Below the pieces are notes generated by a model. That model was not told the DNA's origin, did no database searches, and was given only the letters and a program-made list of their open reading frames with translations. From an uncultured Clostridia bacterium (GTDB lineage Bacteria > Bacillota > Clostridia > TANB77 > CAG-508), in assembly GCA_944388805.1 (NCBI GenBank), contig CALXKE010000002.1, positions 47,631-111,630 of the forward strand: DNA of 64,000 nt, written 5' to 3'. Below, piece after piece: positions 48,407 through 56,720 of this stretch. The position numbers and the translations under genes are program-made. The first letter of the stretch is position 1. Each line of letters opens with the position of its first letter.

Positions 48407-48655
48407 TTATATAAATTGAATCTTATTATATTCAATTTTATTTTTTAAAAGATATTGTTCTACTTCATTCAATTTTAAATCACTAATTTCTTTTAGAAAT
48501 TTTTTATATTCTAATTGTTCATTATTTTCAAAGTGAATTATTATCCCACTATTTTTTCTGTTTGTTTCTCCTCTAATAATAATCTCAAAGAGATTTTCTT
48601 TATCATTATATTTTAATATTTCCATATTAATTTTATTATCAAAACTTTCTAACAT
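48407..48655 (-). CDS. Hypothetical protein, last gene of the defence operon
   Basis: 82 residues, beta-rich start (MEILKYNDKENLFEIIIRGE) and helical end (EQYLLKNKIEYNKIQ). Starts one base after the stop of the HEPN-like/CBS gene, so translationally coupled. Not recognised; could be a small partner of the CBS protein. Confidence 0.5.
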   Translation of the reverse strand: MLESFDNKINMEILKYNDKENLFEIIIRGETNRKNSGIIIHFENNEQLEYKKFLKEISDLKLNEVEQYLLKNKIEYNKIQFI

Positions 48656-48656
48656 T

Positions 48657-49403
48657 TTATCCTCCTAATATATCCCATGCAGTAAGCATACCTAAAATAC
48701 TTTCATTCTTATTTCCATTTTGAGTAATATAAATACAACCCAGTCTTTTATTCTTTGAAAAATAATCCTTAAACATATCTTCTACATCATAAATATTTTT
48801 TCTTCTTGAAATAAATTCAAAATCTTCCATTGAATGATTTTCTATTTTTATAGCCTCTTTAATATCATTAAATGTAGTTTTTTCATCAATTATTATTTCA
48901 CTTTTTTCATTAACAATATCTAATAATGTATTTTCACTAAAAATTCCTACTAATTTTTCATTTTCTAAAATTGGAATATGAGTATATAATTTTTTTACCA
49001 TTACCTTAATAGTATCATATATACTATCATTAAGTGTTCTGCAAAACATTTCATGTCTTTTTATACAAATTTTACTATCATATATCATTGGTGGATTTTT
49101 TATTTCATCTATAATACTTTTTAGTCTTATATTAATTTCAGGACTTGGGTAAACTACATATTTACTTCTACCAATTATATTATGTGTATTTGTATTCCTT
49201 ACTTCTCTAATCAAATCCAATTCTTTTTTGTGCCTTTTTACGATATTATTTTTTTCACTTAACTTGTTTATTAGGTAACTAATTTCTTTATAATCTGTTT
49301 CTATTCCTTCTTTTTGACAGCTTTCCTTAATTACTTTTTCTAATTCCTTAAATAGATTTAGAAACTTATCTCCCTCTTCTTCAAAATTAATATTACTATC
49401 CAC
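48657..49403 (-). CDS. HEPN-like domain plus CBS-pair protein
   Basis: 248 residues. Residues 1-98 are helical and carry REVRNTNTHN, in which R69-N-T-N-T-H74 fits the R-x4-H motif of HEPN ribonucleases. Residues about 100-245 are a CBS pair: DSIYDTIKVMVKKLYTHIPILENEKLVGIFSENTLLD (first) and the second ending GMLTAWDILGG. CBS pairs usually bind adenine nucleotides. I infer a nucleotide-sensing regulatory or RNase subunit in the helicase/methylase operon. The HEPN call rests on one short motif and helix pattern. Confidence 0.6.
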   Translation of the reverse strand: MDSNINFEEEGDKFLNLFKELEKVIKESCQKEGIETDYKEISYLINKLSEKNNIVKRHKKELDLIREVRNTNTHNIIGRSKYVVYPSPEINIRLKSIIDEIKNPPMIYDSKICIKRHEMFCRTLNDSIYDTIKVMVKKLYTHIPILENEKLVGIFSENTLLDIVNEKSEIIIDEKTTFNDIKEAIKIENHSMEDFEFISRRKNIYDVEDMFKDYFSKNKRLGCIYITQNGNKNESILGMLTAWDILGG

Positions 49404-56300: not shown

Positions 56301-56544
56301 GCTCTACTTTTCCTTGAGCTTCTTCATATAATTCTACAATTTTTTTGTCTGTATTTATTCCTATTAGTATTCTAGTTTTTTCTACTTTATCTAACGCTTC
56401 TTCCATTAAATAAAAGCCACTAGCTCTAAAATATCCAACTAAAACATCAAAAAATTGAGTATTTCTATTTAAAATCTTATTAAATCTATCATACAAATTC
56501 CTTTCAGGCTCATTTGTAAAAAAAGTTAAATCATTCTCACTCAT
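53338..56544 (-). CDS. PLD-like nuclease fused to an SNF2-type helicase
   Basis: 1068 residues. Residues 10-180 are a phospholipase-D-like domain with HAKIYIMRD (138-146) and [12 protein letters not shown]; the H-x-K is present but the spacing to Asp is one residue longer than canonical. Residues 255-800 are a superfamily 2 helicase: [10 protein letters not shown] (284-293), [18 protein letters not shown], and the C-terminal [34 protein letters not shown]. A helical, Lys-rich tail ends it. This architecture is known from anti-phage islands. First gene of the five-gene operon; promoter at 56605. Confidence 0.88.
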   Translation of the reverse strand: [1068 protein letters not shown]

Positions 56545-56720
56545 AACTATACCTCTTTAAATAACTTTATTCTTAATCAAGTCAACTTCCATTCAATCAT
56601 TCATATTATATCATATTTTTTTGTTTTGTGCTGAATTTTGTCAAAATTAGTAAATAATTCTTTTTATTCTATAATATCTTATTATATGTCTATAAATCTA
56701 CAAAAAAAGAGTTTTTCTAT
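56523..56720. repeat. Promoter-region direct repeat, copy A (functional)
   Basis: Covers the first helicase codons and about 175 bp upstream. It aligns over its whole length with 58083-58272 with scattered changes, including the -10 region and the AATTTTGTCAAAATT palindrome. Confidence 0.75.
56605..56648 (-). promoter_or_regulatory. Promoter and palindrome of the defence operon
   Basis: Minus-strand TGATATAAT (extended -10; hexamer 56605-56610) lies about 61 bp before the helicase start. Upstream is the palindrome AATTTTGTCAAAATT (56634-56648). Both are kept in the copy at 58.2 kb. The TTGACA inside the palindrome is too far from the -10 (28 bases) to be its -35; it is more likely a binding site. 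Confidence 0.5.

Follow-up and report, generated by a model that had tools for sequence, protein, structure and literature searches.

The window analysed here, a 64,000-nucleotide stretch of contig CALXKE010000002.1 from an uncultured Clostridia bacterium of the gut, carries on its minus strand a five-gene operon that is rather probably an ATP-dependent restriction-modification (R-M) system, with a YdbC protein that would bind single-stranded DNA (ssDNA) and an exchangeable second layer of defence. This reading was drawn from sequence comparison; gene content, gene order, motifs, the exchange of the recognition region of the methylase, the linkage of YdbC and the incongruence between the HEPN-CBS protein and the helicase were directly observed. 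The genes, their main parts and the elements at the two ends of the operon are the following (aa, amino acids; bp, base pairs):

53338..56544, minus strand: HEL, predicted HKD(PLD)-SNF2 helicase-nuclease of 1068 aa (Pfam PLDc_2, SNF2-rel_dom, Helicase_C)
55960..56454, minus strand: predicted N-terminal HKD nuclease domain of HEL, residues 31-195 (PF13091, 9.8e-11)
49645..53319, minus strand: MT, Eco57I/type IIG-like adenine methyltransferase of 1224 aa (PF07669, 2.2e-43; TaqI_C, 2.5e-10; motifs)
49648..50922, minus strand: predicted C-terminal target-recognition region of MT, residues 800-1224 (drop in identity to G043 and G275)
49415..49645, minus strand: YdbC/PC4 family protein of 76 aa (PF02229, 1.7e-13; YdbC structures in the PDB)
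48657..49403, minus strand: HCBS, HEPN-CBS protein of 248 aa with a GTG start (CBS, 6.3e-9; DUF4145, sub-threshold)
48407..48655, minus strand: S82, an orphan of 82 aa (homologue after HCBS in G043)
48354..48379, no strand assigned: bidirectional terminator-like palindrome at the 3' end of the operon (stem-loop, T run on either strand)
56605..56613, minus strand: extended -10-like element TGATATAAT, found by eye about 60 bp upstream of the HEL start

The order HEL-MT-YdbC-HCBS-S82, with intergenic gaps of 18, -1, 11 and 1 bp, had been described in an earlier note on this DNA and agreed exactly with the coordinates of the open reading frames (ORFs); by eye, a purine-rich stretch lies ahead of each of the five starts. 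A chance arrangement of the first three genes is unlikely, because HEL-MT-YdbC recurs in this order in five further genomes, where the gaps range from -8 to +15 bp. The same note had proposed a single promoter region, for which the -10-like element is a candidate; promoter-like matches as a class were no commoner than in shuffled sequences (74 versus 72.4), and one promoter for the operon is plausible.

HEL combines the HKD domain with SNF2 (3.4e-8) and Helicase_C (2.2e-22) domains, its top PADLOC model was "C3a139, HKD+Snf2" (3.1e-51), and residues H138, K140, N162, G286-K289 and D353/E354/H356 were invariant in all nine aligned homologues. For MT, the best PADLOC model was REase_MTase_IIG (1.4e-188), and the DPxxGSGAF and NPPY motifs were kept in 13 of 13 aligned methylases. 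Type IIG/Eco57I-like methylases and type ISP enzymes are large adenine methylases of one chain whose target recognition is C-terminal; MT resembles these in its chain, the helicase and HKD nuclease being here on a separate protein. The catalytic region of MT (residues 350-790) was 82% identical between the window and G043 and 83% between the window and G275, versus only 27% and 21% in the C-terminal recognition region (residues 800-1224). In the G869 methylase, identity to the window was 37% in both regions alike. An invertase together with inverted methylase C-terminal pieces was found in P. nigrescens and G869 (L082 6195-11167, L023 12173-20303), the Mpi-type invertase being annotated in the former and recognised by eye in the latter, which suggests that the specificity of the pair is phase-variable in both. 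Swapping and inversion of target-recognition regions are an established mark of variation in R-M specificity, and an exchanged recognition region beside a conserved catalytic part, with inverted pieces next to an invertase, is what would be expected for such switching.

Eleven clostridial loci were examined: the window (G000), G043, G275, G245, G309, G1207, G1201, G1173, G485, G587 and G557. Three of them are incomplete: the helicase is broken in G485, the methylase of G587 extends beyond its contig and the helicase of G557 is truncated at a contig end; ten were found by the helicase and G309 by the HEPN-CBS profile alone. Helicase matches at E <= 1e-60 occurred in 5 of 391 class genomes, 2 of 368 phylum genomes, 4 of 155 family genomes, 4 of 69 genomes in the G587 family and 1 of 6 in the G485 family, these samples overlapping and counting the genome's own match wherever it was sampled. 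Among 94 relatives, the helicase matched 17 at E <= 1e-3, and below 1e-60 only the window and G043. Helicase and methylase were also next to each other, or separated by no more than a few genes, in Parabacteroides, two Prevotella, G869, Thermus, Thermococcus, Synechocystis pSYSX and Rhodococcus; G869 was placed by the classification tool in the same phylum as the window, yet its locus clusters with Parabacteroides in the tree. A phage collection searched with the helicase gave three records only, partial and 26-28% identical. By this comparison, helicase and methylase appear to be an old pair, present in Clostridia and, as single loci, in other phyla, and the defence-type operon with an HKD-helicase and methylase core that had been proposed is backed by both domains and loci.

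The further proposal, that the small genes are conserved members of the same unit, held in part. Among the loci examined, all five genes were uninterrupted in the window order in the window only; G043 has all five with one extra gene inserted and one appended. Since compositions differ among the clostridial loci, the five genes as a fixed unit were rejected. Beside the pair, YdbC proved recurrent, HCBS was present in four of the 11 loci and S82 was seen in two.

The 76-aa protein scored 50.3 bits with the PC4 family against a cut-off of 25, and matched YdbC over its full length (PDB 3pm7, 2.8e-26; 2ltd, 1.4e-25; 2l3a is also in the family). The PDB entries list the protein as uncharacterised and supply structures alone; YdbC presumably binds ssDNA. 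In six loci (G000, G043, G275, G1207, G1201 and G1173) the YdbC start lies -8 to +13 bp from the MT end, and in G485 a broken remnant sits at the methylase end, giving six intact copies and one broken copy directly after the methylase in the 11 clostridial loci. In G587, YdbC was matched elsewhere in the genome, and the methylase end is absent from the locus. The loci of Bacteroidota, G869, Thermus and Thermococcus gave no PC4, HCBS or S82 by tblastn. Mapped onto the helicase tree, presence of YdbC required 3 changes versus a shuffled mean of 5.7, a value as low being reached in 7 of 500 shuffles (G587, whose methylase end is absent, was scored as lacking YdbC); a single gain with later losses is possible. 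In same-genus genomes, YdbC was unmatched in 32 of 35, many of them incomplete, the three matches being the window, G002 (in phage-like surroundings, by eye) and G020 (where the copy is divergent and its contig, of 5.9 kb, has by eye genes for type I M and S on the opposite strand). Taken together, the loci point to YdbC as a recurrent third gene of the helicase-methylase system.

Other genes accompany the trio in some of these genomes. In G1201, a 1166-aa protein with an RNA-dependent RNA polymerase match (PF05183, 1.2e-14; L107 14557-18057) lies downstream of helicase, methylase and YdbC, and in G1173 a gene starts similarly by eye (L108 4760-5812). In G1207, a separate 327-aa PLD/NgoFVII-like protein downstream of YdbC (L106 8124-9107) is possibly an extra nuclease of that system.

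Beyond the pair, PF02229 gave 31 matches in 27 of the 71 genomes of the class sample. The 30 clostridial YdbC loci besides the window comprised 2 that were R-M-linked, 26 in which no R-M gene was seen (14 by BLAST against R-M seed sequences, 12 by eye) and 2 that were not re-located. G468 has the order HsdR C-terminal piece-HsdM-HsdS-YdbC, and in G444 HsdR lies upstream of YdbC with two genes in between. From 38 plasmid records with YdbC, 13 were looked at, a non-random choice of mostly best-scoring rows: five abut helicase-nuclease defence genes, six do not (judged by annotation or ORF listing), and two were unannotated and left out. Type I R-M genes accompany YdbC in Niallia (HsdM-HsdS-HsdR-YdbC), in Cetobacterium (YdbC-HsdM-HsdS) and in E. 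faecium (after HsdM/HsdR pieces), and in Fusobacteria ZRK30 and Acetoanaerobium it stands beside a 1563-aa SF1 helicase/REase_MTES_1575 protein and its 1696-aa relative (34%). Three unrelated helicase-nuclease types thus each have a YdbC neighbour. No paper tying YdbC to R-M was found in the literature searched. A PC4-like anti-CRISPR protein is described as nicking DNA (PMC8545432), and by analogy a nicking role is conceivable for YdbC. Somewhat short of an even prospect, and held tentatively, is the wider idea that YdbC/PC4 is a general ssDNA cofactor of bacterial helicase-nuclease defences, recruited independently by HKD-SNF2/methylase, type I R-M and SF1-helicase/MTES_1575-REase systems of Bacillota and Fusobacteriota, and either required for degradation or protecting the host from it; the window would be its clearest case, with a swappable HEPN-CBS suicide RNase layer.

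The candidate for that layer, HCBS, has a HEPN-like N-terminus and a C-terminal CBS pair. DUF4145, to which it shows a sub-threshold match, belongs to the HEPN superfamily, and HEPN-CBS fusions had been noted before, with ligand-controlled RNA degradation suggested (both in PMC3710099). R69, N70 and H74 (R-N-x3-H) were invariant in 18 of 18 aligned sequences, from 22 loci collected, and Foldseek returned the HEPN entries 3o10 and 6m6w at a non-significant E of 2.7-2.8. The assignment of the HEPN half, which draws on the motif and on a helical model, is weaker than that of the CBS half.

An HCBS profile found matches in 6 of 385 order genomes, of which that in G222, a CBS fragment of 45 residues containing a stop, was dropped. 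Rebuilt with five members, the profile matched 19 of 391 class genomes; G485, G557 and G587, which are in that sample, were not among the matches, and the stretches retrieved from G275, G1207, G1201 and G1173 showed no HCBS. HCBS thus adjoins the pair in 3 of the 10 helicase-found loci besides being present in G309, and its position varies: downstream of the pair in G000 and G043, upstream in G245 (210 bp) and G309 (133 bp). Between G043 and G245, HCBS is 78.7% identical and HEL 50.1%, the reverse of the window-G043 comparison (61.3% for HCBS, 75.2% for HEL), and this disagreement indicates horizontal exchange of HCBS. HCBS therefore was not the fixed member that the earlier note had taken it to be; its sequence relationships suggest a transferred, exchangeable add-on to the pair.

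Elsewhere, HCBS was found beside a GmrSD gene or alone, as in G206, where it precedes a GmrSD-type gene (GmrSD_N, 2.4e-32). Seventeen neighbourhoods of distant members were fetched and 13 inspected (L071, L074, L075 and L077 were left out); none of the 13 had a BLAST match to the window-type helicase or methylase. They hold mostly ordinary genes by eye, and HCBS as a defence-only family was rejected; the exceptions are L061, where it follows a 1626-aa DEAD/UvrD helicase protein, and L063, where by eye it precedes a UvrD-like gene. In L070, L072 and L076, from very small genomes of family f10, the HEPN-CBS gene occupies by eye a conserved site near ileS, hslVU and thioredoxin genes, which suggests a housekeeping role there. 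A tblastn search of plasmids added nothing, viral contigs held no relative of HCBS, and the genome contigs gave no new locus among the matches listed, the two loci there being those of G043 and G309.

S82 has only sub-threshold domain matches in Pfam. Its homologue after HCBS in G043 was recovered by BLASTP at 5e-15, with a score equalled in 0 of 2000 shuffles, and S82 was seen in these two loci; tblastn missed even the G043 homologue, hence its non-detection at other loci is not firm. The room after HCBS is small in G309 and G206, and the G245 gap holds no long open frame. HEPN-type proteins of other kinds were met as well: HEPN_AbiU2 upstream of the helicase in G275 (2.3e-9, above cut-off), a 579-aa gene after YdbC with a sub-threshold HEPN_Swt1 match in G1173, and an R-N-x3-H motif in a 503-aa protein of G043 on which Pfam is silent. 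HEPN-type proteins therefore seem, from their motifs and matches, to recur in the add-on slots of helicase-methylase loci.

Among the closest published relatives, Type-2 BREX-related (BR) systems comprise a DUF499 ATPase, an N6-MTase, an HKD-Swi2/Snf2 helicase and, in 98% of taxa, DUF3780 (PMC12839542). They share with the window the HKD domain N-terminal to a Swi2/Snf2 helicase, an adenine methylase in the operon and a proposed R-M logic; HEPN auxiliaries are described for BREX/BR systems, and the window operon likewise has a HEPN-type gene, but the window differs in having YdbC as its third gene and HEPN fused to CBS. Neither DUF499 nor DUF3780 was found in Pfam scans of ten window proteins (47435-62688), relatives being outside the scan. 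The HKD-SF2 helicase of CxC-ABC/PbeABCD is described as an HKD endoDNase-SF2 fusion accompanied by a further small protein and in some cases by methylases, as here (PMC10853773); unlike what is described there, the window methylase is of Eco57I rather than cytosine type, and no ABC ATPase or DndE was seen adjacent. DS-11 is a one-protein CBS+HEPN defence in which nuclease and CBS mutants lose activity, adenine-nucleotide gating being a proposal from mutants and a model (PMC13092281, DefensePredictor). HCBS resembles it by domain description, HEPN and CBS being in one protein, and differs in being joined to an R-M operon and followed by an 82-aa protein. The nucleotide-gated HEPN-CBS RNase that had been suggested for this operon thereby gains, by analogy, a published experimental precedent.

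The DISARM DrmD equivalog NF038317 reached 165.8 bits against a cut-off of 610. DUF1998, the domain of DrmB, was absent from the eight Pfam-scanned proteins, and DrmA appeared in the best 25 PADLOC rows as a helicase cross-match on HEL only. The type I R-M layout of separate HsdM, HsdS and HsdR was not found in the operon by Pfam. All NCBIfam matches of the operon proteins fell under cut-off and PADLOC gave none for the three small proteins, these being scans of single proteins with hidden Markov models and no system caller. The statement that no named system has exactly this gene set agrees with these scans and with the literature searched.

In the mechanism that we favour, MT would mark the host genome at a short sequence set by its C-terminal recognition region. 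Unmarked DNA would engage HEL, whose SNF2 motor would move along or remodel the duplex while the HKD active sites cut. YdbC would bind the ssDNA exposed by motor or nuclease, and either keep the strands open for the nuclease or block repair of the intermediate. HCBS, a separately acquired back-up and by analogy probably an adenine-nucleotide-gated RNase, would sense through its CBS pair an adenine nucleotide whose level shifts in infection, whereupon its HEPN domain would cut RNA and halt the cell; S82 might be its partner or brake.

Several observations weigh against this scheme, every biochemical step of which we infer. None of the signature Asp residues of the HKD motif is invariant among the nine HEL homologues, and nuclease activity is predicted from the H, K and N residues. 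Distant HKD-helicases in G036 and G083 (28%, BLAST) lie in other-type loci without an MT-type methylase, and a Halorubrum helicase relative has no annotated methylase. YdbC was not matched anywhere in the genomes G245, G309 and G557, which indicates that the pair can do without it, and the majority of YdbC genes sampled elsewhere have no R-M link. The Pfam match of HCBS to DUF4145 is below cut-off; its structural model, built from three sequences, is weak (mean pLDDT 51.2, N-terminal helices ~80-89), and Foldseek gave nothing at E <= 0.001, the best CBS match being 2uv6 at E 0.05.

A rival reading is that of two independent neighbours which merely share a transcript, namely the R-M system of HKD-helicase and methylase (plus YdbC) and a HEPN-CBS defence of one protein, like DS-11. 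This is a real possibility, to which we give a little less than even weight: HCBS stands at either end of the pair, and beside a GmrSD gene in G206, it is far more similar than HEL between G043 and G245, and DS-11 is described as a one-protein system (PMC13092281). Speaking for a closer tie are the 4 of 11 loci (one found through HCBS) in which HCBS, in two distinguishable lineages, stands with this pair, and its tight spacing in the window and G043. A looser arrangement still, in which a mobile defence island carries YdbC and HEPN-CBS along and neither is functionally tied to the pair, would fit the serine recombinases and other defence-like genes around the operon and the 26 of 30 other clostridial YdbC loci with no R-M gene seen; it is improbable, since outer neighbours vary among the six loci in which YdbC abuts MT.

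The role of YdbC could also be the opposite of that in the favoured scheme, i.e., it could shield host ssDNA at replication forks, in natural transformation or in repair from the helicase-nuclease, much like restriction alleviation. YdbC adjoins type I R-M genes too, and type I enzymes have known self-damage and alleviation (PMC11109961); against this, loci without YdbC persist, and we regard host protection as possible if rather doubtful. Finally, MT might be a complete type IIG enzyme with an N-terminal nuclease, HEL being an accessory translocase, as its best PADLOC model would suggest. Residues 21-127 were modelled as alpha-beta-beta-alpha-beta-beta (pLDDT ~66-89, in a shallow model of three sequences), and a strand-end ELK/ELR/QLK occurs in the methylases of six loci (G1207, G1201, G1173, G485, G245 and G309); at the same position, the window clade has VKLK, IKLQ or IKLK and other methylases TLK, EVV, EVK or EMI. 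Foldseek gave nothing at E <= 0.001, with weak, non-significant matches including Cas4-type nucleases (E 0.24-0.33), and a PDB sequence search with MT gave no match. With structure prediction and fold search both non-significant, the N-terminal nuclease is at most a candidate, and the type IIG reading is kept as an unlikely alternative to the R-M system with HEL as nuclease.

The surroundings of the operon hold further genes. At 41760-45021 (minus strand), two tandem large serine recombinases of 533 and 555 aa, the first with Resolvase, Recombinase and zinc-ribbon domains, precede small genes and one for a sigma-like protein; possibly the same integrated element carries the operon as cargo. 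On one side of the operon (47435-48341) lie a 195-aa protein of unknown family and a divergent XRE-like gene, and on the other side of the island (63210-63860) a short relative of the 195-aa protein and a regulator-like gene; further relatives stand upstream of defence loci in G275 (L105 5387-5701) and G036 (L025 9364-9987). Directly upstream of the operon, a 384-aa GTPase is encoded at 56829-57983 (minus strand; MMR_HSR1, with weak septin, IRG and dynamin matches). At 60069-62688 (minus strand), a 315-aa protein without a Pfam match overlaps a 559-aa AAA_21 ATPase, which looks like a further ABC-ATPase-type defence pair.

The HKD-SNF2/methylase pair without a DUF499 ATPase is an apparent phylum-crossing R-M type for which no name was found in the libraries and literature searched. 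If YdbC is indeed its subunit, a small protein that is common would gain a function, and this would raise the question of the fate of the single strands produced by DNA-translocating restriction enzymes. The HEPN-CBS protein offers a sequence-level case of an effector, probably an RNase, that passes from one restriction system to another; the concept of back-up effectors, already published, is thereby extended to this type. More broadly, these loci suggest that ssDNA binders are possibly overlooked partners of several bacterial DNA-destroying defences.

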